From positions 1-41,823 of the forward strand of contig NZ_JADMKV010000040.1 in assembly GCF_015476545.1 (NCBI RefSeq): a stretch of DNA of 41,823 nucleotides. The letters run 5' to 3'. Position 1 is the first letter of the stretch; each line of letters opens with the position of its first letter. Positions 16,086 to 38,531 of the stretch are shown here, piece by piece. Source of the DNA: Methylobacter sp. BlB1. Its GTDB lineage: Bacteria > Pseudomonadota > Gammaproteobacteria > Methylococcales > Methylomonadaceae. The notes under the pieces were generated by a model. That model saw only the letters and a list, made by a program, of their open reading frames with translations. It had not been told where the DNA came from and did not search any database. Made by a program: the position numbers and the translations under genes.

Positions 16086-16616
16086 ATGGCAGAAAGTAGT
16101 CAAAAATTTATCGCACGCAATCGTGCGCCAAGAGTTCAGATCGAATACGACGTTGAATTATACGGAGCGGAAAAAAAAGTCCAGTTGCCGTTCGTGATGG
16201 GCGTTTTAGCCGACTTGTCAGGAAAACCCGCCGAACCTCTGGCGCCGGTTGCCGAGCGCAAGCTGCTGGAAATTGACGTTGACAACTTCGATGAACGTCT
16301 GAAGTCCATGAAGCCGCGAGTGGCTTTTACCGTGCCGAACACTATTACCGGCGATGGCAATCTGAACGTTGATATCACCTTCCAGAGCATGGATGACTTT
16401 TCCCCGGCGGCTGTTGCCAGAAAAGTGGAAGGACTCAATAAACTGCTGGAAGCTAGAACGCAATTGGCCAATCTGGTGACCTATATGGACGGCAAGGGCG
16501 GCGCGGAAGAGCTGATTGCCAAGGCCATCAACGATCCTGCCTTGCTGCAGTCGCTGATCGCGGCGCCTAAGCCGGCTGCAGACGCAACGCCAGAAACCCC
16601 GGAAGCAGGAGAATAA
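16086..16616 (+). CDS. tssB: TssB, contractile sheath small subunit
   Basis: TssB (VipA) interlocks with TssC to build the contractile sheath. The 176-residue protein has the family pattern: basic N-terminus with NRAPRVQIEYDVELYG, the LPFVMGVLADLSG segment, DVDNFDERLKSMKPRV, then LNVDITFQSMDDFSPAAVA. It ends in an Ala/Pro-rich tail. Only 3 nt separate its stop from tssC, so the two subunits are made together. Compare the TssB-like half of the fusion gene at 30475-31953. Confidence 0.96.
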   Translation: MAESSQKFIARNRAPRVQIEYDVELYGAEKKVQLPFVMGVLADLSGKPAEPLAPVAERKLLEIDVDNFDERLKSMKPRVAFTVPNTITGDGNLNVDITFQSMDDFSPAAVARKVEGLNKLLEARTQLANLVTYMDGKGGAEELIAKAINDPALLQSLIAAPKPAADATPETPEAGE

Positions 16617-16619
16617 GCC

Positions 16620-18116
16620 ATGGTTGAAGTAGCAAATGCGCCAGAAGCCCAAGCAGGGGCTCAGGCACAGGAATTCAGCGATTTTTCATCATTGCTGAAC
16701 AAAGAATTCAAACCCAAATCGGATCGTGCCAAGGCAGAAGTTGAAAACGCGGTTCAGACATTGGCCGAATACGTTTTGAAGGATGCCTCCATCATATCGG
16801 AAGATGCGATCAATTCAATTGAGGCTATCATCGCGCAGATCGATAAAAAACTGACCGAGCAGGTTAATCTGATTCTTCACCATGAAGATTTCCAGAAGCT
16901 GGAAGGATCATGGCGAGGCCTGCATTATATGGTCAACAATACGGAAACTGACGAGCAACTGAAGATCAGAGTCATGAACATCTCGAAGAAAGAGTTGGGC
17001 AAGACGCTGAAGAAATTCAAAGGCACGGCCTGGGATCAAAGCCCGCTGTTCAAGAAACTGTACGAAGAGGAATACGGCCAGTTCGGCGGCGAACCGTTCG
17101 GCTGCCTGATGGGCGATTATTACTTCGATCATTCACCGCAGGACGTTGAACTGCTGGGCCAGATAGCGCAGATTTCAGCGGCATCGCATGCGCCGTTCAT
17201 TGCCGGCGTTTCGCCTTCGACATTACAGATGGATTCATGGGCCGAACTGGCGAATCCCCGCGATCTGACGAAAATATTCTCGACGCCGGATTATGCCGCA
17301 TGGCGCTCATTGCGCGAATCGGATGATTCCAAGTACATCGGTCTGGCTATGCCGCGCTTCCTGTCTCGTCTGCCGTACGGCTCTAAAACCGATCCGGTGG
17401 ACGAATTCGATTTCGAAGAAGATACCGAAGCGGCCAACAGCGGCAACTACACATGGTCCAATGCCGCCTATGCCATGGCGACCAACATCAACCGCTCGTT
17501 CAAATTGTACGGCTGGTGCTCCAGAATTCGCGGCATTGAATCAGGCGGCGCCGTCGAAGGCCTGCCGGTGCATTCGTTTCCGACCGATGATGGCGGCGTG
17601 GATATGAAATGCCCGACCGAGATCGCCATCAGTGACCGCCGCGAAGCGGAGCTGGCCAAATCGGGCTTTATGCCGCTGGTGCATAAGAAGAATTCCGACT
17701 TTGCAGCATTTATCGGCGCGCAATCATTGAATAAGCCGGCCGAGTATGATGATCCGGATGCAACGGCAAACGCCAACCTTGCGGCCAGATTGCCTTATCT
17801 GTTTGCGACCTGCCGCTTTGCCCATTATCTGAAATGTATCGTGCGCGACAAAATCGGCTCATTCAAGGAGCGTTCGGACATGGAGCGCTGGCTGAATAAC
17901 TGGATTCTGAATTATGTGGATGGTGATCCGGCAAACTCCAGCGAAACGACTAAAGCGAAAAAGCCGCTGGCTGCCGCCGAAGTTGTTGTTGAAGAGATAG
18001 AAGGCAATCCCGGGTATTACTCGTCAAAATTCTTTCTTCGCCCGCACTATCAGCTGGAAGGCTTGACAGTGTCGTTGCGATTGGTTTCCAAACTGCCCTC
18101 CGCCAAAGGCGGTTGA
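16620..18116 (+). CDS. tssC: TssC, contractile sheath large subunit
   Basis: TssC (VipB) is the large sheath subunit and carries the site recognised by ClpV. The 498-residue length is normal. Typical stretches are DFQKLEGSWRGLHYMV, FGCLMGDYYFDH, PFIAGVSPS, MPRFLSRLPYGSKTDPVDEF and the complete C-terminal domain (from about 380; GNPGYYSSKFFLRPHYQLEG) that forms the sheath handshake strands. It lies directly after tssB. The 92-nt gap to hcp contains a weak 5-bp hairpin but no convincing terminator. Confidence 0.97.
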   Translation: MVEVANAPEAQAGAQAQEFSDFSSLLNKEFKPKSDRAKAEVENAVQTLAEYVLKDASIISEDAINSIEAIIAQIDKKLTEQVNLILHHEDFQKLEGSWRGLHYMVNNTETDEQLKIRVMNISKKELGKTLKKFKGTAWDQSPLFKKLYEEEYGQFGGEPFGCLMGDYYFDHSPQDVELLGQIAQISAASHAPFIAGVSPSTLQMDSWAELANPRDLTKIFSTPDYAAWRSLRESDDSKYIGLAMPRFLSRLPYGSKTDPVDEFDFEEDTEAANSGNYTWSNAAYAMATNINRSFKLYGWCSRIRGIESGGAVEGLPVHSFPTDDGGVDMKCPTEIAISDRREAELAKSGFMPLVHKKNSDFAAFIGAQSLNKPAEYDDPDATANANLAARLPYLFATCRFAHYLKCIVRDKIGSFKERSDMERWLNNWILNYVDGDPANSSETTKAKKPLAAAEVVVEEIEGNPGYYSSKFFLRPHYQLEGLTVSLRLVSKLPSAKGG

Positions 18117-18781: not shown

Positions 18782-19576
18782 ATGAACCTTGCAGAGCAGC
18801 ATTTACAGGAAGGCCGGCTTCAGGAAGCGCTGGCTGAATTACAAAATCAGGTTCGTAAAGACCCTGCCAATCCTAAACTCAGAACATTTCTATTTCAGCT
18901 TTTGTCGATTCTCGGCGAATGGGATCGCGCACTGACGCAACTGAATGTGGCGGGCGAGCTCGATGCGGCGAATCTGCCTATGGTGCAGACTTACAGGGAA
19001 GCTATTCGATGCGAAGTTTTGCGCAAGGATATCTTCTCAGGCCATAAAACGCCTGTGGTTTTTGGTGAGCCGGCACAGTGGATCGCGCTGCTTCAGGAAG
19101 CGCTTAAACTGAACGCCGACAATCGGTTCGCGGAAGCGAGAAATCTGCGCGATCAGGCTTTTGACCTGGCGCCCGCAACGCCGGGATCAATCAACAGCAA
19201 TGCCTTTAACTGGATAGCCGATGCCGACACCCGCCTGGGGCCCATGCTGGAAGCGATAGTCAATGGTCATTATTACTGGGTTCCATTCCATCAGATTCAC
19301 GAGATTCATATTGAGGAACCGGCCGATCTGCGCGATTTTGCCTGGATGCCGGCGCATTTCGTCTGGGCGAACGGCGGCGAAGCCTTCGGCTTGATCCCAA
19401 CACGTTATCCCGGTTCCGAAACCGCCAATGATCCGGCAATACGTCTGGCCCGCAAGACGCAGTGGCTGGAGCAGGCTGAAGAATCATTCATCGGCTTGGG
19501 GCAACGGTTATTGAGTACGGACGAAAACGACTATGCGCTAATGGATGTCCGTGAAATTAAATTTAATATTGACTAA
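18782..19576 (+). CDS. tagJ: TagJ (ImpE family), ClpV-associated accessory protein
   Basis: The 264-residue protein belongs to the ImpE/TagJ family. In Pseudomonas, TagJ (HsiE1) binds ClpV and the TssB sheath protein and assists sheath recycling. The N-terminal half is TPR-like: LQEGRLQEALAELQNQVR, then the NPKLRTFLFQLLSILGEWDR segment. The C-terminal half has the family's WIADADTRLGPMLEAIVNG and YYWVPFHQIHEI motifs. Its place between hcp and tssE marks an H1-like (i3-type) locus. The Shine-Dalgarno sequence AGGAAAG lies upstream of the ATG. It comes just after the hcp terminator. Confidence 0.92.
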   Translation: MNLAEQHLQEGRLQEALAELQNQVRKDPANPKLRTFLFQLLSILGEWDRALTQLNVAGELDAANLPMVQTYREAIRCEVLRKDIFSGHKTPVVFGEPAQWIALLQEALKLNADNRFAEARNLRDQAFDLAPATPGSINSNAFNWIADADTRLGPMLEAIVNGHYYWVPFHQIHEIHIEEPADLRDFAWMPAHFVWANGGEAFGLIPTRYPGSETANDPAIRLARKTQWLEQAEESFIGLGQRLLSTDENDYALMDVREIKFNID

Positions 19577-23078: not shown

Positions 23079-25811
23079 ATGTCAGACATCAGTCGTGTGG
23101 CGCTGTTCGGGAAGCTGAACAGCGTCTGTTACAAAGCGATAGAAGGCGCAACCGTATTTTGCAAGATGCGCGGCAATCCCTATGTGGAACTGGTGCACTG
23201 GCTGCATCAGATTCTGCAGCTGCAGGATTCTGATCTGCATAAAATCATCCGTCAGTTCAATCTCGATCCCTCCCGGCTGGCCAAGGACTTTACCGATGCG
23301 CTCGACCGGTTGCCCCGGGGCTCCACGTCCATTTCCGATCTGTCTTCGCATGTCGAGGAAGCTGTCGAACGCGGCTGGGTATACGGCACGCTGATGTTCG
23401 GCGAATCGCAAGTCCGCTCGGGGCATCTGGTCGTCGGCATTCTGAAAACCAAAGGGCTGACGCATGCCCTGCAAGGCATCTCCAGGGAATTCGACAAGAT
23501 CAAGCCTGAGACTCTGACCGAACGTTTTGCCGAAATCGTCAGCGGCTCGCCGGAAGAAGGCCTGCGCGCCAGCGACGGCTTTCAGGTCGGCGGCGGCGCC
23601 GTTCCGGGCGAGGCCAGCGGCGCCATGTCGCCGGCGCAGATGGGCAAGCAGGAAGCCTTGAAGCAGTTTACGGTCGATCTGACCGAGCAGGCGCGGCAAG
23701 GCAAAATGGACCCGATCGTCGGGCGCGACGAGGAAATTCGCCAGGTCATCGATATCCTGATGCGCCGCCGCCAGAACAATCCGATCCTGACCGGCGAGGC
23801 CGGCGTCGGCAAGACGGCTGTCGTCGAAGGTTTTGCGCAGAAAATCGTCGCAGGCGACGTGCCGCCGCCCTTGCGCGATGTGTCGCTGCGCACGCTCGAT
23901 GTCGGCTTGCTGCAAGCCGGCGCCAGCATGAAAGGCGAATTCGAAAACCGCCTGCGCCAGGTCATAGAAGAAGTTCAGTCCTCGGAAAAACCGATCATCC
24001 TGTTCATCGATGAAGCCCATACCTTGGTCGGAGCGGGCGGAGCAGCCGGCACCGGCGATGCGGCCAATCTGCTGAAGCCGGCTCTGGCGCGCGGTACGCT
24101 GCGCACAGTCGCCGCGACAACCTGGGCCGAATACAAAAAGCACATCGAAAAAGACCCAGCCCTGACGCGCCGCTTCCAGGTCGTGCAGGTCAACGAGCCG
24201 AGCGAGGAAAAGGCCATTCTGATGATGCGCGGCGTGGCGTCGGTCATGGAAAAACACCATCAGGTGCAGGTGCTCGATGAGGCATTGGAAGCGGCGGTCC
24301 GATTGTCGCACCGCTACATTCCGGCCCGCCAGTTGCCCGATAAATCAGTCAGCCTGCTCGATACGGCTTCGGCCCGCGTCGCGATCAGCCAGCATGCCGT
24401 ACCGGCCGAGGTGGACGACTGCCGCAAACGCATCGCGGCGCTGGAAACCGAACTGGCCATTATCGGCCGCGAGAAAGCGGTCGGCATCGACATCAAGGAC
24501 CGCGAAACGGTCGCCGCTGAAAAGCTCGGTGCGGAAAAAGAGCGCCTGAGCAAACTGGAAACACGCTGGAATGCCGAGCGCGAACTGGTCAAAAGCATAC
24601 TCGATATCCGCAAGCAGTTGCGCGATCAGACCGGCAAAGTGGAAGGCACCGACAGCCCGCTTGAAAAAGCCGCCGACCGGATGGCCGAAGCCGAATCCGC
24701 CCCAGCAACGGCAAGTGTGCCGCGCGAACAGTTGCTGGAAGAACTGAAAACCTTGCAGGCGAAACTGCATGAACTGCAAGGCGAAACGCCGCTGATCCTG
24801 CCCAGCGTCGACGCGCAGGCCGTTGCCTCCGTGGTCGGCGACTGGACCGGCATTCCGGTCGGCCGCATGGTTAAAAACGAAATCGAAACCATTCTGCATC
24901 TGGCCGACAACCTGGAACAGCGCATCATCGGCCAGCGCCATGCCCTGGACATGATCGCCCGAAGAATCCAGACCTCGCGCGCCGGCCTCGACAATCCCAA
25001 CAAGCCCATCGGCGTCTTCATGCTGGCCGGCACCTCCGGCGTCGGCAAGACCGAAACGGCGCTGGCCCTGGCCGAAGCCTTGTACGGCGGCGAGCAGAAC
25101 GTCATCACCATCAACATGAGCGAATATCAGGAAGCGCACACCGTATCGACCCTGAAAGGCGCGCCTCCGGGTTATGTCGGCTACGGCGAAGGCGGCGTGC
25201 TGACCGAAGCGGTCCGGCGGCGTCCTTACAGCGTCGTGCTGCTGGATGAGGTCGAAAAAGCCCATCCCGATGTGCATGAGATTTTCTTCCAGGTCTTCGA
25301 CAAGGGCTGGATGGAAGACGGCGAGGGCAGGGTCATCGATTTCAAGAATACATTGATTCTGCTGACGACGAACGCCGGCACCGACCTGATCGCAGGACTG
25401 TGCCGCGATCCGGAACTGATGCCGGAACCGGAAGGCATTGCCAAGGCGCTGCGGGAACCGCTGCTGAAAGTGTTCCCGCCGGCCCTGCTCGGCCGTCTGG
25501 TCGTGATTCCTTATTATCCGCTCAGCGACGAAATGATCGGCGCGATCGCCCGCCTGCAGCTCGGCCGGATCAAGAAGCGCATCGCTGAAAGCCACAAGGT
25601 GCCGTTCACTTACGACGATGACGTGATCAAGCTGATCGCGAGCCGCTGCACCGAAGTCGAAAGCGGCGGCCGCATGATCGATGCGATTTTGACCAATACC
25701 GTGTTGCCGCGGATCAGCGAGGAGTTTTTAACACGGATGATGGAAGGCAAACCGATCGAGCGGGTTCATGTGAGCGTGCAGGATGGGGATTTTGGGTACG
25801 GGTTTGAGTAG
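23079..25811 (+). CDS. clpV: TssH/ClpV, AAA+ sheath disassembly ATPase
   Basis: ClpV is the hexameric AAA+ unfoldase that dismantles contracted TssB/C sheath. The 910-residue protein has an N-terminal Clp_N-like domain (1-165). The first AAA+ module carries Walker A GEAGVGKT (242-249) and Walker [11 protein letters not shown] coiled-coil middle region spans about 440-590. The second AAA+ module carries Walker A GTSGVGKT (651-658) and [11 protein letters not shown]. Both ATPase sites look intact. The Shine-Dalgarno sequence GGGAGA lies upstream of the ATG. It is the last gene of the main structural operon; the genes downstream change in base composition. Confidence 0.97.
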
Positions 25812-28644: not shown

Positions 28645-30003
28645 TTAAAATTCGAAACGCACCCCGCCTTCAATAGTATGGTTAACAGCGTCAGACATAA
28701 TAAGGGATTGATAGTTAAACATGGCCGACAATCCGTTCGGTAATGTCACTAGAACACCGGCGCCGATATTACCCCAATCTGTCTCGGGTGAATTCGACGT
28801 GATTAAAGTGCTGCCTCCGCCTTGAATCAGGGCCTGAGTCACTCGGGCATCATTGGCGTACTCTCTCACCCATTCGCCAGTGACTCGCGGGGTGATCACG
28901 CCGAAAGGCAGGCTCCAGGCATAGCTCAATTCGGTGCCAAATGTGCTGGTTACTGACGTAACATATTGGTTCGGCACATTTAACAAGCCAGTACGGGCAT
29001 CTCCGCTTTCCTGGTAACCGCTAATATCCATATAAATAGCTGACGCTTCACCGTATCCGCGTAAACTCCATGCTCCAAAGTTATGCGTGTATCCCAGTCC
29101 CGTATGGATGTTGTATTCGTCTGTACGGAAGGCTGCATTCGCCGAAGTAGCGCACGCTGCGCAGTTGCGCTTTGAACGATTGTCATGGCTCGCATACCCA
29201 GCTGCAATGTCAATATAGGTATTTTCAGTTGGCAATAGCGTCACAAAAGGTGAAAATCTGAAAGTATCGGCATCCAGGCGGCCACCCGAATTCACGACTT
29301 CCGCTGATGAGCTGGTATAGCCAAATAACAAGCCCGTAAACAAACGGTCGCTGATTTTTAAATCAACGCCACCGTTAAAATTCCTGGTATATAAGTCAAA
29401 CCCTGCCGCGGTGCTGTTGCTCTCAACATTGCCGAATGTACCGCCGGAATTGACATAAAGGCCAAATGGTCCCACAAGCTCATAGCCATCGCCTGCGCCC
29501 CCGCCCGCGTTAGAAGAATTCGGGTTTTGCCTCAATGTGCGCATTGATTGCAGCGAGCGGCTCATCTGGGTTGTGCTACGGTTAAGCTGCAAATTAATAG
29601 TCGTTGCGGCATTGACTGCATTGATGGCTTGCTGCTCTTCTGTCGCATGGCCGCCGGATAAAACAGGAAAGCAATTGTTTTGGAATTCAATGATAGCGGC
29701 ATCTGATGGCGACTCAAACGGCAGTGAAGACGAGCCTCTGGGTGAGCTGCAAGTCATAGTATCAGTAGCTGTATTCCACTCGAAAACTGCTCCTTCCACG
29801 GCGTCAGTTATGCGATACGCGAAATCAGTAAAACCTTTGCTTGTTTGGTAGTCGCCAAACGCACTTGCAGCTTCTGTATGGCTAAGTGCGGAAGTCACGT
29901 CGGCGACAGGAAATTGAGTTCCATCTTGGGCGATATAAGCCCCGCTGAGAGCCCCCCAGGCTGTCGGAGTAAATGCCAGCAACGGAAATAAAATTTTTTT
30001 CAT
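28645..30003 (-). CDS. Autotransporter-type beta-barrel outer-membrane protein
   Basis: A 452-residue outer-membrane protein. A clear signal peptide (MKKILFPLLAFTPTAWGA) is followed by a short passenger-like region of about 170 residues with one disulfide-type Cys pair. A beta-barrel at about 180-452 ends in GGVRFEF, the aromatic C-terminal signature of outer-membrane proteins. Barrel strands such as FGTELSYAWSLPFGVITPRV and GNIGAGVLVTLPNGLSAMFNY match corresponding strands in the Calx-beta protein at 280-3072, so the two barrels are homologous. The Shine-Dalgarno sequence GGGGG lies upstream on the minus strand. The role is unknown; adhesin or porin-like is possible. Confidence 0.8.
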   Translation of the reverse strand: MKKILFPLLAFTPTAWGALSGAYIAQDGTQFPVADVTSALSHTEAASAFGDYQTSKGFTDFAYRITDAVEGAVFEWNTATDTMTCSSPRGSSSLPFESPSDAAIIEFQNNCFPVLSGGHATEEQQAINAVNAATTINLQLNRSTTQMSRSLQSMRTLRQNPNSSNAGGGAGDGYELVGPFGLYVNSGGTFGNVESNSTAAGFDLYTRNFNGGVDLKISDRLFTGLLFGYTSSSAEVVNSGGRLDADTFRFSPFVTLLPTENTYIDIAAGYASHDNRSKRNCAACATSANAAFRTDEYNIHTGLGYTHNFGAWSLRGYGEASAIYMDISGYQESGDARTGLLNVPNQYVTSVTSTFGTELSYAWSLPFGVITPRVTGEWVREYANDARVTQALIQGGGSTLITSNSPETDWGNIGAGVLVTLPNGLSAMFNYQSLIMSDAVNHTIEGGVRFEF

Positions 30004-30474
30004 TAGAAAGTTCCCCCTTTATGTTGCGCTCATTTGGCATGAAGCAGCGCATTATGTTTTATTGTTATCGCGCGGTGAGACACCGCACAGGATGAATCTC
30101 AGTCTCTGCTTGATTTTAAGCTAACTGATCATTGTTAAATTCATCTAACATATTTTATAGATAAAATCCGAGAACCGCATTACTGAATCTGAAAGCTGTA
30201 AGGAGGATTTGCCTTGGCAATCCACCGACAAACGGAGCCTTAAAACCGTAACGTCCTGCAATGTTAATGGCTTGATTGAAATTTGGGGTATGAAAGAGTT
30301 GATGTGGCTCGTAAAAGTTAGATAATGAGCAGAATCTATTGAGCAGGGCGAGGTTTGTAACCTCGCCCTGAACGTTTGGAAACCGTTTTCCGGCAGTAAT
30401 CATAATTCTAATGGATGAGAGCTTTCCAGCATGTACATATATCGTGACATTATTCAAGGCTGGGACTACGTGAG
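30004..30474. other. Intergenic region with palindromes
   Basis: This 471-nt gap lies between two leftward genes. It holds the promoter region of the beta-barrel gene, a degenerate hairpin of the dispersed family (GGATTTGCC 30205-30213, GGCAATCC 30216-30223) and the 12-bp hairpin listed separately. A 107-aa leftward open frame (30155-30478) crosses these palindromes and has no coding character, so I do not call it. Confidence 0.5.
30344..30370. repeat. Perfect 12-bp hairpin
   Basis: CAGGGCGAGGTT (30344-30355) and AACCTCGCCCTG (30359-30370) form a perfect 12-bp stem with a 3-nt loop. It lies about 105 nt past the stop of the leftward TssB-TssC fusion gene. No T-run follows on either strand, so it is more like a dispersed palindromic repeat than a classical terminator, though it could protect the 3' end of the mRNA. 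Confidence 0.8.
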
Positions 30475-31953
30475 TCAATCTTCTCGGCTACAGATTCCGG
30501 CAAGCCCGACTAGAGGCGCAGCTATTGATTGAAATCGCAACAACCGTGCGCAATTGCGGTTCCGATAGCTCAGCAACGGCATGACGCCTCGCTCAAGCAT
30601 TGCTTCTGCCGTGGCTTCAGGCAGGTACCATTCCGCACAGGCCTGCATGAGCGTTTCGCCGTCTTGTTTATAACTGTAGGCGGGCAGATCGTCGACATTC
30701 AAGTGCCGGTCGGGCGACAGCGGCCAGCCGGTCTCCTGAAAATTTTCCGCTAATAATCTTGCGCAGGCGAAAGCAGGGCTGCCCCACAGAAAAGCCTCGT
30801 GCTCGTCCGGCATAGTCAGTTCTTCAAATTCAAAACTGTCGATCGGGTCGGTTTTCCTACCGTAAGGCAGGCGCAAAAGAATCCGGGGCAACGCCAGGCC
30901 CAGCCATCGCGCATAAGGTTTTTCACGCAATGCTTGCCATACGGCCATGAATTCAAAGTTGCCATTCCATGTCGAGGGAGGGGAAGGCTGGGCGAGCGAA
31001 GCGCAACCTAAAAGACTGCTGTCGGCGGCGGCCAGAAAAGGCGTACCAATATGGGCGGCGATAGCGCCCATGGCTGACAGTGTTTGTACATCCTGTCGGG
31101 CGGCTGCGAAAGTATAATCGCCTATTATCACCGACCAGGGCTGGTCAATGCTCTGCCGGGCCAGCAATTGGTAGACGGCCGAGGTTTCCAGATTCTCGCT
31201 GGCGCTCAGAAGATCCTGAGCCAATTCAGCCTGTGATATGTCGAGCAGGTACAACTGCAGTGATTCGCCCGTTTCGAGTCGGGAAACCAGTTCATAAGCG
31301 GATCGCCACAGCGCTTCAAGAGACTGAAAGTCAGGATGGTGCAGCAGGGAGCGCATCAATGCGCTAGTTGCCCGGTCGACCTCGGCTATTAGTTCGGGCT
31401 GGCGCGGATCGATCTTCTCAACGATATGGGGCGCTATGATGTTTTTAAACAAGTGGTCCAGAGAACTTTGCAGGTGTGGTTGCTGCGCAGGCGCTTTCCC
31501 GAGCAGACGCTCAAACAATGCGTTCTGATCCTCAGCCGGAGTTGTCTCGACAGATTGTCCGGCGTCATACGGTACATTGGCCGTCCCCATCAACTTTGCC
31601 GACGTTTGTGCAAAAGTTGCAGGATTCTGCAGGCTTTGGCGCAACTGAGTCACGCGATGAAAAACATCCAGTTCCTTATAGAGATGACCAGGGTGAAAGT
31701 CGTCGAGACAGTGGAAGACGACTTCGGTCTGCAAGTCCTGAAAGTTCAGTACGGGGCTCAATTGGAACATGACTTCGTCAAAATTATCAATGTCTATGCT
31801 GGTTATTTTCCGATTCTTCAATGCCGCATCAGGATGACGATGCCCGCTGAAATTGCCCACCATCAGTATGCGCATGGGCGAATCTGCGGCGGATGCAGCC
31901 TTCTTGTCTGCGGCAGTGCTGAAACGGAAGTCGAACTTTAATTGTCCGGGCAT
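30475..31953 (-). CDS. TssB-TssC-like sheath fusion, C-terminally truncated
   Basis: A 492-residue protein that joins two sheath subunit families. Residues of about 1-165 match TssB: ILMVGNFSGHR, ITSIDIDNFDEVMFQLSPVL, VVFHCLDDFHPGHLYKEL. Residues of about 165-492 match TssC: HHPDFQSLEALWRSAYELV, VIIGDYTF, IGTPFLAAADSSLLG and LALPRILLRLPYGRKTDP, aligning with the locus TssC. It stops at the equivalent of TssC residue about 365-380, so the final 120 or so residues of TssC, which provide the C-terminal sheath handshake strands, are missing. The downstream sequence shows no TssC continuation in any frame, arguing against a simple frameshift. Strong AAGGAG 5 nt before the ATG. It is transcribed divergently from vgrG. 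The role is unknown; a sheath cap, adaptor or regulator is an inference. Confidence 0.85.
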   Translation of the reverse strand: MPGQLKFDFRFSTAADKKAASAADSPMRILMVGNFSGHRHPDAALKNRKITSIDIDNFDEVMFQLSPVLNFQDLQTEVVFHCLDDFHPGHLYKELDVFHRVTQLRQSLQNPATFAQTSAKLMGTANVPYDAGQSVETTPAEDQNALFERLLGKAPAQQPHLQSSLDHLFKNIIAPHIVEKIDPRQPELIAEVDRATSALMRSLLHHPDFQSLEALWRSAYELVSRLETGESLQLYLLDISQAELAQDLLSASENLETSAVYQLLARQSIDQPWSVIIGDYTFAAARQDVQTLSAMGAIAAHIGTPFLAAADSSLLGCASLAQPSPPSTWNGNFEFMAVWQALREKPYARWLGLALPRILLRLPYGRKTDPIDSFEFEELTMPDEHEAFLWGSPAFACARLLAENFQETGWPLSPDRHLNVDDLPAYSYKQDGETLMQACAEWYLPEATAEAMLERGVMPLLSYRNRNCARLLRFQSIAAPLVGLAGICSRED

Positions 31954-32278
31954 AAGGGCTCCTTAAGTGATCGAAAATAAGCATTTGTGCTTAAGATAAT
32001 TCGATGTTCACCCATGTGCAAGTCTCTTGCTGAGCTTGTAGTTAGGAGCCGCTTTGATTACTTGTATAATTATTCTTGCAACCTATCCCTCCACTTGTTC
32101 TATCGGGTTTAGAACAAGCTATATCAAATTGCACTAAACCAATTTGCATTGACTTTCATCAGCTTTCTAATAATATTTGCTGGATAGAGAAAATGGTATA
32201 AACGGCAAAAAGTGGTATCGATCGCTTATACGCTGACGCTCAGTGTTGAATGCACTCTTGTTCCAGGAATCAAGCTCC
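31954..32278. other. Divergent promoter region of sheath fusion and vgrG
   Basis: This 325-nt A+T-rich gap separates the leftward sheath fusion from rightward vgrG. It must contain promoters for both unless they are read from further away. No gene is visible in it. The best rightward promoter candidate is listed separately. Confidence 0.5.
32149..32177 (+). promoter_or_regulatory. Candidate sigma-70-like promoter for vgrG
   Basis: TTGACT at 32149-32154 is followed after 16-17 nt by TAATAT/AATATT (32171-32177), each matching the -10 consensus at four of six positions. It lies about 100 nt upstream of the vgrG start. This is a visual match only. Confidence 0.35.
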
Positions 32279-34465
32279 ATGGCGGTTACACAAAAAAATC
32301 GTAAGATTCAGGTCTTTACATCACTTGCCGAAGATACTTTGCTGTTTTACCAGATGCATGGCCGGGAGGGCTTGAGCGAGCCATTCGAATACAGCGTGGA
32401 GCTGGTCAGTGAAGACCGGGCTATCGATCCCGAAAAACTGCTGGGCGAACCGCTCACTATCAGGCTGCAACTGGAAGACGGCAGCTGGCGCTACTTCCAT
32501 GGCTTTGTCAGCCGCTTCGGACAGTGGGGCGATCTGAACGGGCTTTCCCGCTATCATGCCACAGTCCGGCCCTGGCTGTGGTTTTTGACCCGCACCTCCA
32601 ACTGCCGGATCTTCCAGAACAAATCCGTGCTCGAGATTATCAAGCAAGTCTTTCAGGACCGCGGCTTCAGTGACTTTGAAGAAAGGCTGGTCGGCAGCTA
32701 TGTCCCCCGCGAATACTGCGTGCAATACCGCGAGACCGACTTCAACTTCGTCAGCCGGCTGATGGAAGAGGAGGGGATTTACTACTATTTCAGCCATGAG
32801 AAGGACAAGCATCATCTGGTGCTGGCCGATTCCAACAATGCCCATGACCCGTTTCCAGGCTATGACGACATCCCCTACCATGTCGAAACCGGCCCGATGG
32901 ACCGCACCCGCAAGGATCACATCCACGACTGGATCTTCGCGCGCGAAGTCCAGCCGGGCGCCTATGAACTGACCGATTACGACTTCAAGAAGCCCAAAGC
33001 CAATCTGTTGGTCAAGTCTATCCTCAAAAACTCCCACCCTCATGCCGAGTATGAACGCTTCGATTACCCGGGCCGTTATACGGAAACCAGCGCGGGCGAT
33101 AATTTGGTTCGTCAGCGTATCGAGGAACACCATGCCCGCTTCGAACGCTGCGAGGGTAAATGCAACGCCCGTGGTCTGGCCGCCGGCTACCGCTTCAAGC
33201 TGCAGGAATTCCCGCGCCAGGACCAGAACCGCGAATATCTGGTGGTCTCAGCTAACTATCATTTACTGCTGGATGAGTATTCTTCCAGATCCGCGGCCAG
33301 CGAAGAGAAGCTCTTCGATTGCAGTTTTACCGTTCAGGACAACAAGCGACCCTACCGTGCCCGGCGCAGTACGCCGAAGCCCTATGTCCGGGGCGCTCAG
33401 ACCGCCGTTGTGGTGGGGCCTGCCGGCGAGGAGATCTATACCGACAAGTACGGCCGGGTAAAGGTCCAGTTTCATTGGGACCGCTACGGGAATAAAGACC
33501 AGGACAGTTCATGCTGGGCACGGGTCTCATACCCTTGGGCTGGCAAGAACTGGGGCATGATTTCCATTCCGCGCATCGGCCATGAAGTCGTCATAGAATT
33601 CCTGGAAGGCGACCCCGACCAGCCGCTCATCATTGGCAGCGTCTACAACGCCGATATGATGCCGCCTTTCGAATTGCCGGCCAACGCCACACAGAGCGGT
33701 GTTCGTACCCGTTCCTCAAAAGGCGGTTCTGGCGCCAACTGCAACGAACTCCGTTTCGAGGATAAGAAAGGTTCGGAGCAGGTTTATCTGCATGCCGAAA
33801 AAAATCAGGACATCGAAGTCGAGAACGATGAAACGCATTGGGTAGGCCATGATCGCACCAAGACCATCGATCACGACGAAACCTCCCATATCAAGCATGA
33901 CCGCACGGAAACTGTCGATAACAACGAAACCATCACTATCGGCGTCAATCGCAAGGAAACCGTTGGCGCCAATGAAACCATCGACATCGGCATGAACCGC
34001 ACGGAAACCGTTGCCCAGAATGAGACCATTACCGTTGGATTAAACAGGACGCGCGCGGTGGGTATCAATGAGGCCATTGCCATCGGCGCCGCTCAGGAGG
34101 TTGTGGTCGGCGCGGCTAGAACAGTCAGCGTAGGACTCAATCAGGCGACCACCATTGGCAACAGCTATTCAATGGATGTTGGCAACGACCAGTCCATTCA
34201 GGTAGGAAAAAATCAGAGTTCCAGTATCGGTGATAACCGGAGCGCTTCGGTCGGCAAGGATGATAGCCTTGATGTAGGTAAAAACTTAATGATAAATGCA
34301 GGCGATTCCATCGTTATAAAAACAGGAGATGCCAGTATTACTATGAAAAAAAATGGCGACATTACTATCAAGGGTAAAAATATTACCATCCGCGGTTCCG
34401 GCAAGATCAATGCCAAGGCAGACAGTAATGTGGTCATCAAAGGCAGCAAAATTGGCGAGAACTAG
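32279..34465 (+). CDS. vgrG: VgrG (TssI) spike protein with 16-residue repeat tail
   Basis: VgrG trimers form the spike that caps the Hcp tube and carries effectors. From ATG 32279 (AGGAA 9 nt upstream) the protein has 728 residues; an in-frame GTG at 32243 would add 12. The gp27-like part is about 8-350 (EPFEYSVELVSE; REYCVQYRETDFNFVSRLME). A gp5 OB-fold follows at about 375-475 (DKYGRVKVQFHWDRYG; SCWARVSYPWAGKNWG; PRIGHEVVIEFLEGDP). Residues of about 517-676 are ten tandem 16-residue repeats of the N-E-T-I-x-I-G-x-N-R-x-E-T-V-G-x kind that should form the triple beta-helix needle. The tail has further G-D-x-T-I-K strands but no recognised catalytic domain. It heads the effector module. Confidence 0.96.
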   Translation: MAVTQKNRKIQVFTSLAEDTLLFYQMHGREGLSEPFEYSVELVSEDRAIDPEKLLGEPLTIRLQLEDGSWRYFHGFVSRFGQWGDLNGLSRYHATVRPWLWFLTRTSNCRIFQNKSVLEIIKQVFQDRGFSDFEERLVGSYVPREYCVQYRETDFNFVSRLMEEEGIYYYFSHEKDKHHLVLADSNNAHDPFPGYDDIPYHVETGPMDRTRKDHIHDWIFAREVQPGAYELTDYDFKKPKANLLVKSILKNSHPHAEYERFDYPGRYTETSAGDNLVRQRIEEHHARFERCEGKCNARGLAAGYRFKLQEFPRQDQNREYLVVSANYHLLLDEYSSRSAASEEKLFDCSFTVQDNKRPYRARRSTPKPYVRGAQTAVVVGPAGEEIYTDKYGRVKVQFHWDRYGNKDQDSSCWARVSYPWAGKNWGMISIPRIGHEVVIEFLEGDPDQPLIIGSVYNADMMPPFELPANATQSGVRTRSSKGGSGANCNELRFEDKKGSEQVYLHAEKNQDIEVENDETHWVGHDRTKTIDHDETSHIKHDRTETVDNNETITIGVNRKETVGANETIDIGMNRTETVAQNETITVGLNRTRAVGINEAIAIGAAQEVVVGAARTVSVGLNQATTIGNSYSMDVGNDQSIQVGKNQSSSIGDNRSASVGKDDSLDVGKNLMINAGDSIVIKTGDASITMKKNGDITIKGKNITIRGSGKINAKADSNVVIKGSKIGEN
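33827..34306 (+). repeat. Ten 48-nt (16-residue) coding repeats in vgrG
   Basis: The reading frame contains ten consecutive 16-residue units, each two 8-residue half-turns built on the pattern polar-ETI-x-(I/V)-G-x-N. Units near the start are His/Asp-rich (DETHWVGHDRTKTIDH), and later ones change to Ser/Lys-rich. The DNA copies have diverged, so this is mainly a protein-level repeat. It fits the intertwined beta-prism of VgrG spikes. Confidence 0.85.
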
Positions 34466-34468
34466 AAA

Positions 34469-34978
34469 ATGGCGGCAGAATCGGTTATCAAATTTCAAAG
34501 TCCATCGGCACACGCTGGCGAACAAGTCAACGATGAAGCGGTAAGCCCTCCTCAGACGCCCTCTCTGCCAAGTGTTGTGATCGGCCGCTTGGAAGGTTTC
34601 GAAAATGGCCTGCCGATGGTAAATTTTCCAAACAATAAGCAGGGAAAAGCGCTGCGGGCGCTAACAGGCGTGCCGCTGTCGCAGACCAATACAGGCCGTG
34701 AAGTGATTCTGGCCTTTGCCGATGGCGATCCGGAAAAACCGGTCATTCTAAATCTGCTGGTCGATCACCGATCAGGCGGCATCCCTGCCTCCTCTGTCGA
34801 TATTCAGATTGACGGCGAAAGATTACTGCTTACTGCGCAAAAAGAAATCGTGCTCCGCTGCGGCGAAGCAAGCGTTACTTTGACTGCCGCGGGAAAAGTG
34901 CTTCTCAAAGGCGCTTATGTACTGAGTCGGTCAAGCGGATACAACAAGATTAAGGGTGCGGCGGTTGACATCAATTAA
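34469..34978 (+). CDS. DUF6484-type T6SS accessory protein
   Basis: A 169-residue cytoplasmic protein of the DUF6484 kind: VVIGRLEGFENGLPMVNFP, TGVPLSQTNTGREVILAF and ADGDPEKPVILNLLVD form a small beta-barrel resembling the gp5 OB-fold of VgrG (about residues 35-105). A C-terminal beta-rich segment (VDIQIDGERLLLTAQKEIVL) looks like a short spike-like tail similar to the end of VgrG. Genes of this kind are found next to vgrG and DUF2169 genes. It starts 3 nt after the vgrG stop and is certainly co-transcribed. The role is probably spike or effector loading; the family assignment is from memory. Confidence 0.75.
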   Translation: MAAESVIKFQSPSAHAGEQVNDEAVSPPQTPSLPSVVIGRLEGFENGLPMVNFPNNKQGKALRALTGVPLSQTNTGREVILAFADGDPEKPVILNLLVDHRSGGIPASSVDIQIDGERLLLTAQKEIVLRCGEASVTLTAAGKVLLKGAYVLSRSSGYNKIKGAAVDIN

Positions 34979-34989
34979 TATGTATTCTC

Positions 34990-36057
34990 ATGTGGCAAAT
35001 TGATAACCGTACGCCTTTTGCCGCTGAGCGAGGATGGGTCCGTGATCGCGATGGCGCCGAGATCTGGCTGGTAGCAGTCAAGGCAACATTTGACATCAAA
35101 CCGGATGGTTCCGTCGAAATCTCGAAGGAGCAGCCTCCGGTGCTGCGCATTCCTGAATATTACGGCGAGCCGGGCAAGAGCAGCATAAAGTACGAGGCCG
35201 ATCTTGTTTTAACAAAAAAAACTACCGATGTGCTAGTCATCGGCCATGCATACGCCCCTATCGGTTATACGGTAACTTGTCTGGATGCCGGCTTTCGGGT
35301 AGGGCCTATTACAAAGATGCTTCGCATTTATGGCGATCGTCATTGGGATGCTGAAGGCGGTTTGTCAGCCCCGAAACCTTTCGAAAAAATGCCCTTAATA
35401 TACGAACGGGCCTTTGGCGGGGTGGACCATGCATCGGACAATCCGGAGCGGGATTTCGATTGGCGCAATCCTGTAGGCACCGGATACGCGGCTTCTTGGC
35501 TGAATCTGGCAGGTGTAGCGTTACCCAATATTGAATATCCGAATCAGCTTATTCAGTCGGGCAGTGATCGGCCGGACCCGGCCGGCTTTGGGGCTGTCAG
35601 CTGCCACTGGCAACCGCGCGTATCGTTCGCAGGCACTTATGATGACAATTGGATGAAAAATCGTCAGCCTCTCCTTCCGGAAGATTTCGATGACCGCTTT
35701 TATCAATGTGCGCCGGCTGATCAACAGGCCCCAGGTTTCTTAAAGGGCGGAGAACCCGTCGCGCTCAGCGGCCTGACGCCCAGCGGAAATTTATTGCGCT
35801 TTGTGCTGCCCAAAATTTATCTGGGCTTCGAAACCCGTTTTTATGACGGCAGCCGCGAAATCCATAAAACGCGCAATCTGCACACAGTCATCCTGGAGCC
35901 GGATTTTCCGCGCGTTTCCTTAGTCTGGCATACGGCTTTGCCGTGCCACTTCAAAGTACAAAAGCTGGAACGTACCGTCGTAACCCTCAAGACTAATTTG
36001 AGAGAGGGAAACGCTATGACTGATGATGCTGCGCTGGAGATGGGGCAAGATGAGTAG
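34990..36057 (+). CDS. DUF2169 family effector adaptor-like protein
   Basis: A 355-residue protein of the DUF2169 family, which is associated with T6SS loci encoding DUF4150/PAAR effectors and is thought to act as a chaperone or adaptor for loading them on VgrG. Recognised stretches are WLVAVKATFDIKPDGSVEIS, EADLVLTKKTTDVLVIGHAY, MPLIYERAFGG and NPVGTGYAASW, ending in a beta-rich C-terminal part with LVWHTALPCHF. No signal peptide. Its 3' end overlaps the next gene by 8 nt, so expression of the two is coupled. Its cargo is probably the DUF4150 nuclease two genes downstream. Confidence 0.88.
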   Translation: MWQIDNRTPFAAERGWVRDRDGAEIWLVAVKATFDIKPDGSVEISKEQPPVLRIPEYYGEPGKSSIKYEADLVLTKKTTDVLVIGHAYAPIGYTVTCLDAGFRVGPITKMLRIYGDRHWDAEGGLSAPKPFEKMPLIYERAFGGVDHASDNPERDFDWRNPVGTGYAASWLNLAGVALPNIEYPNQLIQSGSDRPDPAGFGAVSCHWQPRVSFAGTYDDNWMKNRQPLLPEDFDDRFYQCAPADQQAPGFLKGGEPVALSGLTPSGNLLRFVLPKIYLGFETRFYDGSREIHKTRNLHTVILEPDFPRVSLVWHTALPCHFKVQKLERTVVTLKTNLREGNAMTDDAALEMGQDE

Positions 36058-37108
36058 TACGGCAATCTATGTTGTTGGGTTAGGGGCCTGCACGCCGGTC
36101 GGACGCAATGCCTGGTCTAGCGCTGCGGCAGTACGGGCGGGAATCAGCGGCTTCACGCAACATCCTTATATGATCGACACGGCTGGCGAGCCGATGTGTG
36201 CCGCGATAGCGCCCTGGCTGGATATCGACATCACGGGTGTGGAACGATTTAAGGCATTGCTGTTTCCGGCAATTGACCAGGCTCTTGCCCCCATTGCCGA
36301 GGCGCAGTCACTGCGTCCACGTACCGCGCTGTCGCTGGGCCTGCCCGGTCAGCGGCCCGGATTGCCTGAGAATTTTCAACCTATGCTCATGAATGCACTG
36401 GCAGAAAAGTACCGTAGTACTTTTGCAAGCGTTGCCGCATTTCCCAATGGACATGCCGCCGGACTATTGGCCCTTGAAGCCGCAGCGAGACAGCTTGTTC
36501 AGGGCGCATTCGATGCTTGTGTGGTAGCCGGAGTCGATTCGTATCTGGAACCCGAGACGTTGGAATGGTTGGAAGCATGCGACCAGCTGCATGGAGCCGG
36601 TCCGCTCAACAATGCCTGGGGGTTTATTCCAGGGGAAGCGGCCGGCGCGATTTTGGTCATGCGGCACGAATTTGTTGTACGGCTGCGCCTTCAGCCTCTG
36701 GCGCGTTTGCTTAGCTTGGGCTCGGCGTTTGAGCCCAAACGCATCAAGACTGAGACAGTCTGCGTCGGCGAAGGTCTTACTCAGGCTTTCCGCACCGCCC
36801 TGCAGGCATTACCCGAAGGCGTCAAGGTGACCGATGTCTATTGTGATATGAACGGCGAACCTTATCGGGGCGACGAATATGGTTTTACCTGTTTGCGGAC
36901 CAAGGAGTATTTTGAGTCGGTATCCGACTTTGTCGCCCCGGCAGATTGTTGGGGCGACGTTTCCGCCGCCAGCGGGCCGCTCTACATTGGACTTGCCGCA
37001 ATAGCCGGCAGCAAAAATTATTCAAATGGCAACGTGGCATTCGCTTGGGCCAGTTCCGAAGGCGGCGAACGTGCGGCAAGCATTCTGGAAGTGAGGAGAT
37101 CGGTTTAA
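36050..37108 (+). CDS. Ketosynthase/thiolase-fold protein lacking catalytic residues
   Basis: From ATG 36050 (overlapping the previous stop by 8 nt) the protein has 352 residues. The fold is that of beta-ketoacyl synthase: IYVVGLGACTPVGRNAWSS at the N-terminus, then ACVVAGVDSYLEPE, and GFIPGEAAGAILV in place of the KAS GFVLGDGAGMLVLE motif. By hand alignment to FabF the active-site Cys segment (ATACTSG) is AAFPNGH, the first His region (NAHGTSTPAGD) is CDMNGEPYRGD, and the second His (MTGHLLGAAG) is CWGDVSAASG. All three catalytic residues therefore appear replaced. It is most likely a non-catalytic scaffold or cargo-binding protein in T6SS effector delivery. Its neighbours are DUF2169 and the DUF4150 effector. 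The role is not known to me. Confidence 0.8.
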   Translation: MSSTAIYVVGLGACTPVGRNAWSSAAAVRAGISGFTQHPYMIDTAGEPMCAAIAPWLDIDITGVERFKALLFPAIDQALAPIAEAQSLRPRTALSLGLPGQRPGLPENFQPMLMNALAEKYRSTFASVAAFPNGHAAGLLALEAAARQLVQGAFDACVVAGVDSYLEPETLEWLEACDQLHGAGPLNNAWGFIPGEAAGAILVMRHEFVVRLRLQPLARLLSLGSAFEPKRIKTETVCVGEGLTQAFRTALQALPEGVKVTDVYCDMNGEPYRGDEYGFTCLRTKEYFESVSDFVAPADCWGDVSAASGPLYIGLAAIAGSKNYSNGNVAFAWASSEGGERAASILEVRRSV

Positions 37109-37987
37109 ATGCCTGTAACAATTAAGGTGAACGGGGTAGCCAATTCGCTGGTGCATAAAGGCAGTAACGCCATCTCCACTGCGACCATTCCCGATGTCTG
37201 CAAGACCCCGACTCCAGGCGGCCCGGTGCCCATTCCTTATCCGAACATTTCCCAGTCTGCGACATTAGCCAAAGGTACAACCACCGTTAAGGCCGATGGC
37301 GGTATGATGATTGCGATCAAGGGTTCGGAATTTTCGCTGTCCAATGGTGATGAGCCGGGTTCTATCGGCGGCGTCAAATCCAGCACTTTCATTAAGGAGT
37401 CCACCTGGATTCTTTATTCGTTTGATGTGAAGATGGACGGCAAAAATGTCTGCCGGCTGACAGACAAAAAATTCCAGAATCATGAAAATACCGTCGATCT
37501 GGCCGGTGCAATCCTTGCTCCTACCCCTGTAGGCATGATCGTGCTCGAGTGCGAGCCTGGCTGGACGCCGTGTCAAAAAGCGCAGATGCAAGCCAAGGCC
37601 AATCAGTTGGACTCGCTTGCCAAGCAGGGAAAGATCAAACCCAGAAATACATACAAAGACGGCAAGCCGACACTGCAACGTAAAGCCGGCAACGGATGGG
37701 CCGCAAAATTCGCTCGCGACTGGAACAAACCGGCGCCGGAAGGCTGGCCGGATTCCTCCAACCCGGCCAAGCAGCCAAAAAAATTCTACGATGACTGTGC
37801 AAAAACAAACGATCCGCTCGGAAACAATATGGAGGCGGACCACATTCATGAAATGCAACTGGGTGGCCGGGCTCAGGGGCCGTTTCTATGGCTGGATCGT
37901 GAAGTGAACGGCGCATCCGGGCGACAGATAAAAGAACAACGGAATACAACACCAAACCCGACCGGTTTCACAACCAAGAACTGCTAG
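37109..37987 (+). CDS. DUF4150 (PAAR-like) effector with C-terminal HNH-type nuclease domain
   Basis: A 292-residue evolved spike-tip effector. Residues of about 1-130 are DUF4150, a PAAR-like domain (TPTPGGPVPIPYPNISQSAT, then KADGGMMIAIKGSEFSLSNG and GSIGGVKSSTF), which should sit on the VgrG tip. A Lys/Gln-rich linker leads to a toxin domain at about 175-292 with the motif MEADHIHEMQLGG (residues 241-253), then FLWLDREVNGASGRQI. This matches the D-H...E.QLGG...LW.LD..VN pattern of HNH/His-Me-finger toxin nucleases; D244, H245, E248 and N in the EVN segment are candidate active-site residues. The nuclease activity is inferred. An immunity gene follows after 16 nt. Confidence 0.85.
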   Translation: MPVTIKVNGVANSLVHKGSNAISTATIPDVCKTPTPGGPVPIPYPNISQSATLAKGTTTVKADGGMMIAIKGSEFSLSNGDEPGSIGGVKSSTFIKESTWILYSFDVKMDGKNVCRLTDKKFQNHENTVDLAGAILAPTPVGMIVLECEPGWTPCQKAQMQAKANQLDSLAKQGKIKPRNTYKDGKPTLQRKAGNGWAAKFARDWNKPAPEGWPDSSNPAKQPKKFYDDCAKTNDPLGNNMEADHIHEMQLGGRAQGPFLWLDREVNGASGRQIKEQRNTTPNPTGFTTKNC

Positions 37988-38003: not shown

Positions 38004-38531
38004 ATGGATCAGAGCATCGAAGACCGTATCAGGCGCGCCGTCGAAAAAGGCATTTCCGCCCGCAAAAAATATTATGATTCAATAGGCCTTCCTGATGAGC
38101 AGGAATTAGGGCCTCCATCCTCTCAGGAAGAGATATCGGCGCTTGAGGCGGCAATCGGGAAACCGCTGCCGCCATCGTACAGACACTTTCTCGAGATGTT
38201 TAATGGCTGGCGCATGATCGATGGAGGGCTGGATCTCCTTCCAGTCAAGGATTTGCTTAACGGCCCGCGCAAGCAGAAGATATCTGAATGGCAAAAAAAA
38301 ATGGAATCTTGTGGGGATGAGGTGGCGGCCAGAAGCCTGGTTATTGGTGTGTCATCCGTGACTGCGACTAAATATTTGTTAGATCCCGAGGTTATCGATC
38401 CTCGCGGGGAATGGCGATTCGTCCAGCACCATAACGGTGAAGAAGCCGAAGTTGCGAGTTTTTTGGAATGGCTGGAGGAGTCGGTTGATGAATATGATGA
38501 ATTGGCTTCCATGAACCAGGATATGCCCTAA
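38004..38531 (+). CDS. SMI1/KNR4-family immunity protein
   Basis: A 175-residue protein of the SMI1/KNR4 (SUKH) superfamily, the commonest immunity fold for nuclease toxins. The key signature is the N-terminal SQEEISALEAAIGKPLPPSYRHFLEMFNGWR region (about 40-70; quoted parts: ALEAAIGKPLPPSYRHFL), followed by Trp-Arg/GG strand and a late WRFVQHHNGEEAEVASF segment. It has GAGGA before the ATG and lies immediately downstream of the predicted nuclease effector, so it should protect the producer by binding the toxin domain. It is acidic, as expected for a protein that binds a basic nuclease. The pairing is inferred from order. Confidence 0.85.
   Translation: MDQSIEDRIRRAVEKGISARKKYYDSIGLPDEQELGPPSSQEEISALEAAIGKPLPPSYRHFLEMFNGWRMIDGGLDLLPVKDLLNGPRKQKISEWQKKMESCGDEVAARSLVIGVSSVTATKYLLDPEVIDPRGEWRFVQHHNGEEAEVASFLEWLEESVDEYDELASMNQDMP

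Follow-up and report, generated by a model that had tools for sequence, protein, structure and literature searches.

What brings sheath growth to an end in type VI secretion systems (T6SSs) that lack a TagA cap is, to our knowledge, unsettled. In the solved sheath, strands beta11 and beta12 of TssC accept beta13 of a neighbouring TssC and beta1 of a TssB, and the TssC N terminus forms part of an outer helical bundle (PMC5807055; each paper cited here was available to us in part). TssC motifs of the LLDEII type bind the N-domain of ClpV; they are absent from TagJ systems, with one exception, and in TagJ-class systems the TssC N terminus is reported to be non-essential for ClpV binding (PMC4239648). 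The same paper reports Lys9 and Phe10 of TssB as key to TagJ binding. Second TssC-like proteins have been described too: Atu4340 (TssC40) is required for Hcp secretion, yet its absence does not prevent TssB and TssC41 from accumulating (PMC3702570). Among sheath stabilisers, TagB1 is a member of a class of 30-kDa proteins (PMC7896307). The protein that is the subject of this article is undescribed in the literature we covered on TssB–TssC fusions, second TssCs, ImpD/TssC40, methanotroph T6SSs and sheath stabilisers, a body of work seen in part, with preprints and most subscription papers outside its scope.

A fusion gene beside a complete T6SS

The DNA analysed, here called the window, is 41,823 nucleotides from Methylobacter sp. 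BlB1. One T6SS lies in it, its tssB and tssC being separate genes; further along, on the opposite strand, comes a single frame in which a TssB-like half is joined through a linker to a TssC-like half. The features are as follows, several of the gene labels resting on size, order and homology and not on a family search.

16086..16616, plus strand: canonical tssB (Pfam, NCBIfam)
16620..18116, plus strand: canonical tssC with VipB_2 (Pfam, NCBIfam, genome search for VipB_2)
18782..19576, plus strand: tagJ (ImpE; Pfam)
23079..25811, plus strand: clpV (tssH), from size and order; its place matches that of annotated tssH in loci L035 and L079
30344..30370, minus strand: inverted repeat with 12-base arms, 3' of the fusion gene and starting 104 bases past its stop; possibly the transcript end (by eye)
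30475..31953, minus strand: the fusion gene, TssB-like half, linker and TssC-like half, 492 residues in a single frame
30526..31395, minus strand: TssC-like (VipB) domain, residues 187-476 of the fusion, with 16 residues remaining to the protein end (Pfam, hhalign)
31495..31521, minus strand: linker motif ALFERLLGK, residues 145-153, at the place of the TssC N-terminal ClpV-type helix (column conservation)
31615..31899, minus strand: TssB-like (VipA) domain, residues 19-113 (Pfam, hhalign)
31921..31947, minus strand: alternating N-terminal strand, residues 3-11, candidate donor arm and counterpart of TssB beta1 (hydrophobicity pattern; match by eye)
31959..31964, minus strand: AAGGAG, likely ribosome-binding site, 5 bases upstream of the fusion ATG (by eye)
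32243..34465, plus strand: vgrG, divergent from the fusion across a 289-base gap (by eye; homology to annotated vgrG in L035 and L079)
34469..37987, plus strand: DUF6484, DUF2169, ketoacyl-synthase-like and PAAR-like genes (Pfam; arranged as in a class II Tvp module, PMC13373197)

Other neighbours deserve a mention. An autotransporter beta-domain protein with Calx-beta repeats lies upstream of the T6SS core genes (280-3072), and a second autotransporter beta-domain protein lies between those genes and the fusion (28645-30003). Directly past the PAAR-like gene is a protein of the SUKH (SMI1/KNR4) family (38004-38531), a family from which immunity proteins are known.

The initial annotation, made from the letters of the sequence, had proposed a natural TssB–TssC fusion alongside complete tssB and tssC genes at the same locus, and family searches bear out both statements. 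Pfam finds T6SS_VipA (PF05591) at 47.8 bits (cut-off 24, E 1.7e-12) and VipB (PF05943) at 204.6 bits (cut-off 27, E 2.3e-60). The fusion nonetheless falls below the curated cut-offs for the true subunits, scoring 201.3 against 271.5 bits for TssC (NCBIfam TIGR03355, model positions 24-353 of 473) and 44.7 against 97.25 for TssB (NCBIfam TIGR03358). In hhalign comparisons with the family profile, the TssC half reaches residue 374 of the 498 in the TssC of the window, so the annotation's estimate of residue 365-380 was right. The TssB half spans residues 32-133 of the 176-residue TssB, whose last 43 residues have no counterpart in the fusion. Nor, by eye, do its first dozen or so, which include the equivalents of Lys9-Phe10.

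What is missing from the TssC half is the handshake domain, VipB_2 (PF18945), which a Pfam search of the fusion does not find. With it go the acceptor strands beta11 and beta12 and the donor strand beta13. That nothing continues downstream, as had been claimed, also holds: the frame overlapping the 3' end of the gene (30155-30478) has no Pfam match, and a search of the whole genome for VipB_2 returns canonical tssC and nothing else. Restoration of the C terminus by read-through or frameshift is thereby ruled out. The description of the sheath that accompanied the claim, as interwoven strands from TssB and from both ends of TssC, needs trimming; TssB beta1 and the C-terminal strands of TssC do interweave, but the TssC N terminus sits in the outer helical bundle (PMC5807055). 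Searches of the fusion for ImpA_N (Pfam) and against a defence library gave no match, the genome's single ImpA_N match being tssA. AlphaFold2, run on the fusion from three sequences, returned a pLDDT of 30.

Two short elements outside the cores stand out by their conservation. Among 28 Methylococcales rows, residues 5, 7, 9 and 11 of the fusion are hydrophobic in 89, 93, 96 and 79%, and residues 4, 6, 8 and 10 in 0-11%; conservation across this N-terminal strand is 0.63 against 0.33 in the 13 residues that follow, and in the 18 rows of group B it is 0.88 against 0.41. The strand precedes the hhalign range and was equated with the TssB arm by eye. The linker motif has a mean column conservation of 0.78, against 0.36 and 0.34 in its flanks, in the 28 rows and 0.86 in group B. 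The fusion, then, retains a TssB core, a TssC core and an N-terminal strand with the pattern of a donor arm, and the handshake domain is missing.

A family that follows T6SSs

Could the missing domain simply be damage? We think not. All 53 fusions whose 3' end is intact have 0-14 residues after the end of the VipB domain; in 45 TssC-type rows the figure is 124-155, the two classes being defined by coverage and tail length, so that the constancy of the end rests on the listed values. The 54 fusion rows, extracted from the family survey and the other surveys and de-duplicated, include one cut by a contig (L014), and among the 46 TssC-type rows one is truncated at the edge of its locus. Another nine rows were kept apart: two N-terminally incomplete fusions, three cut by locus edges and four relatives with acidic tails of 86-111 residues, none of which has VipB_2. 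Nine fusion pairs give dN/dS of 0.106-0.289. In a FastTree phylogeny of 326 columns, the 54 fusions and the four tailed ones form one clade (58 of 58, support 1.0, stem 0.87), separate from 67 TssCs, from seven second (ImpD-like) TssCs, which make a clade of their own (support 1.0), and from one divergent main TssC (G039).

Constant end, single clade and purifying selection together exclude a mistake or a pseudogene and give strong support to an old family of type VI accessory proteins with a single origin. A degenerate tssB–tssC duplicate or an assembly artefact, which would account for the absence of a domain that the canonical copies possess, has next to no chance of being correct: those three features refute it, as do the more than 50 homologues in separate assemblies. 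The initial annotation had named two findings that would tell against it. Homologues are indeed scattered without general vgrG linkage, but their truncation points are constant, not random. As for a sequencing error, no TssC C terminus is restored, and the >50 homologues, from separate assemblies, end alike.

The surveys sampled genomes and are not exhaustive. In the family survey 87 of 201 genomes matched, 40 with fusion-type matches and three with fragments; in the class survey 71 of 369 had any match, with 16 full fusions (two of these genomes also being in the family survey) and two fragments. In the phylum survey 88 of 398 genomes matched, three of them with fusion-type matches, the window's own genome included, and in the order of genome G337 14 of 54 did, seven with fusion-type matches. 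All these fusion-type counts were read from the match tables. Plasmid-borne relatives occur in Leisingera, Qingshengfaniella and Eleftheria and, from the listing, in Ruegeria, Phaeobacter and Parasedimentitalea.

The gene keeps company with T6SSs. Within the family, a fusion or fragment is present in 42 of the 86 TssC-positive genomes (39 and 3) and in 1 of the 115 TssC-negative ones (p 5e-18, kinship ignored); within the class, in 17 of 70 and 1 of 299 (p 1e-12, kinship again ignored). The other 44 TssC-positive family genomes have neither. Four genomes with a fusion have no TssC match, and none of the four has VipB_2; TssM is present in two of them (G105 and G996), while the other two (G414 and G974, drafts 95% complete) have no match to TssC, VipB_2 or TssM. 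The fusion gene thus tracks T6SSs, not vgrG, as the gene neighbourhoods make plain.

Using the T6SS proteins of the window as probes, we examined 60 further loci that hold a fusion or a fragment. A divergent vgrG lies within 0.7 kb in eight (L038, L039, L138, L139, L143, L149, L151 and L155), which with the window make six families, and a same-strand vgrG follows closely in two, directly in L079 and after one 94-residue gene in L035. Other T6SS genes lie no more than 9 kb away in nine loci. In the remaining 41 the sequence examined shows no T6SS gene out to that distance, though in 11 of them one or both flanks are shorter than 6.1 kb. Group B belongs entirely to this orphan kind (28 loci, L048-L075; members 33-38% identical), amid varied unrelated genes, and even in the closest relative (L037, 87% identical) vgrG is not adjacent. 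Linkage to vgrG, found in a minority of loci, is therefore recurrent and not general; whether homologues always sit by vgrG/DUF2169 had been posed as a check, and vgrG is near in 10 of 60. The initial annotation did not mention that orphans are in the majority, that the donor arm is kept or that the linker has a motif resembling the ClpV helix.

The two named relatives, M. luteus and M. marinus, have fusion proteins 73 and 71% identical to ours. In M. luteus a kinase-like protein of 633 residues (kinase label by eye) lies 54 bases past the fusion (L038:6829-8727), and in M. marinus (L039) a 633-residue frame lies 41 bases past it; fusion and downstream gene possibly form an operon in these two.

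More elaborate members exist. Two giant Rhodobacterales frames (Qingshengfaniella, Leisingera) run from a complete extra TssB through a repeat region to the fusion and an acidic tail; their middle regions, of ~490 and ~780 residues, are acidic and rich in LDDLL-type repeats, and their annotated starts lie further in, omitting the TssB part. Both frames lie a short way upstream of vgrG, with the 94-residue gene between in L035:

L035:10006-13644, giant frame
L079:7136-11752, giant frame

Qingshengfaniella also has canonical tssB and tssC. G413 and Eleftheria have tails with similar-looking repeats. Since the plasmid annotation of the relative in Leisingera, Qingshengfaniella and Eleftheria reads 'contractile sheath large subunit', such proteins are easily miscounted as TssC.

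We also came across a separate kind of TssB–TssC fusion, full-length at 580-600 residues, that adjoins tssM in all five loci:

L210:4839-6617, full-length fusion
L211:4925-6715, full-length fusion
L212:3983-5725, full-length fusion
L213:3729-5501, full-length fusion
L214:4800-6545, full-length fusion

VipB_2 is present in the three tested, and a canonical tssB–tssC pair stands beside four of the five (L213 is a short contig). In a viral collection one contig matched, IMGVR_UViG_3300028498_000052 (L198/L199); it carries a canonical tssB–tssC pair and is probably bacterial DNA.

What the fusion may do

A protein that is real, conserved, without a handshake and tied to T6SS genomes is likely to have a dedicated role. 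That much of the earlier argument survives. We favour, tentatively and at a little under an even chance, a single-chain mimic of a sheath unit, with a donor arm but no acceptor and a linker probably recognised by ClpV, whose effect would be on the length, timing or turnover of the sheath. By lending its N-terminal arm, the fusion would attach to a ring or to the end of a sheath; unable to accept the arms of the next ring, it would end or destabilise sheath growth; ClpV would then recognise the linker helix and remove or recycle it. The missing acceptor, the arm and the ClpV-type linker would point to such an action and not to service of one VgrG. An earlier suggestion, that the subunit docks but cannot propagate the sheath, fits the loss of the handshake and is sharpened by the retained strand; the docking itself we infer.

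The linker, probably recognised by ClpV, varies largely in step with the TssC class of the genome. Of 60 fusions, 52 have a linker of the xRLLG type, seven one of the LLDxxI type and one neither, and the order of G337 adds five LLD-type fusions beyond the 60. Leucine-type TssC accompanies the LLD-type fusion in six of seven genomes and the xRLLG type in none of 33; every one of those 33, where TssC was read, has an F-type TssC (classes by eye; p 2e-6 by genome and 0.005 by family, across 13 families, kinship ignored). G500, with an LFDQLL fusion and an F-type TssC, is the exception, and G252, which combines an LLD-type fusion and a leucine-type TssC with a weak TagJ match (109 bits), goes against a clean split of classes. 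Apart from that of G500, the LLD types also group together in the phylogeny (support 0.76), so the association may reflect inheritance with the T6SS class and not repeated adaptation. The case for ClpV is weaker in the TagJ class, to which the window's system belongs: the TssC N terminus of that class is reported to be non-essential for ClpV binding (PMC4239648), and the motif there may thus not be a docking site for ClpV.

If the favoured reading is taken at its most specific, the fusion would be a dedicated chain-terminating subunit, an arm but no socket, that closes the growing sheath, carries its own ClpV release tag and, in the two Rhodobacterales, is tethered to a normal TssB by the acidic LDDLL-repeat stretch of ~490 or ~780 residues. 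We regard this version as possible, if on the unlikely side. The simplest reading has the fusion terminate or regulate sheath growth; a ClpV adaptor comes next. Against the favoured reading stand G414 and G974, which carry a fusion with none of TssC, VipB_2 and TssM, and the 44 of 86 TssC-positive family genomes that do without a fusion. A ClpV-facing adaptor or decoy, presenting TssC-like helices so as to recruit or divert ClpV, with the sheath-like fold as its docking platform, seems to us unlikely. It would explain why the linker motif is conserved and matched to TssC class, and why LDxLL-type repeats recur in the tails of G413, Eleftheria and the two Rhodobacterales and, in the latter two, across ~490 and ~780 residues as well. 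But all 53 intact-ended short members are tailless, the donor strand is conserved nearly as well as the motif (0.63 against 0.78 in the 28 rows, 0.88 against 0.86 in group B), and the repeats as ClpV binders are a guess from resemblance.

Less likely again is a cytoplasmic regulator or buffer that would stay out of the sheath, bind unassembled TssB or TssC (or TssA) and adjust assembly or expression. Genes standing alone in many genomes would suit it, as would a protein that, having no acceptor domain, could never be an ordinary sheath unit; it leaves the conserved arm strand unexplained. An adaptor at the baseplate for the adjacent vgrG/DUF2169 spike module, which takes up one of the roles proposed in the initial annotation (cap, length stop or adaptor for the VgrG module), is quite improbable. 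The divergent vgrG of the window and eight of 60 loci, and the same-strand vgrG downstream in two more, are what speak for it. The 41 orphan loci, all of group B among them, and L037 rule it out as a general role, and the part of the Tvp paper available to us names no such component (PMC13373197).

Should the sheath-unit mimic prove correct, a widespread protein that lacks exactly the acceptor domain would offer a concrete, deletable candidate in cultured methanotrophs. Relatives scattered through the Proteobacteria share the protein, which may stop or regulate the T6SS 'spring' and not build it. The tethered Rhodobacterales form, if true, would be a built-in ruler or a ClpV-recruiting leash on the sheath.

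Comparison with known systems

TssB and TssC (VipA and VipB) resemble the fusion in both cores, in the N-terminal strand and in the position of the TssC N-terminal motif; the fusion differs in being one chain, without VipB_2 and without the last 43 residues of TssB, and in forming a separate clade. The full-length TssB–TssC fusions are likewise natural single frames, but they keep VipB_2 (three of three tested) and sit beside tssM in T6SS clusters. TagA, TagB and TagJ, the sheath stabilisers, share with the fusion a proposed action at the sheath end or baseplate. All three are of other families: the ImpA_N domain of TagA-type caps is matched in this genome by TssA alone, TagJ is a separate gene in the window, and TagB1 is of the 30-kDa class (PMC7896307). 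The genes next door are arranged like a class II Tvp module, whose components, as named in the part of that paper available to us, do not include the fusion (PMC13373197). ImpD/TssC40 (Atu4340), from imp-type systems, is, like the fusion, a second TssC-like protein alongside a normal TssC. The two are not the same protein: the counterpart in Rhizobium johnstonii, which owes the name ImpD to its gene order, has VipB_2 and no VipA and falls with six other second TssCs in a clade separate from that of the fusions. ImpD does provide a precedent, in that a TssC-like protein other than the main sheath subunit is required (PMC3702570).
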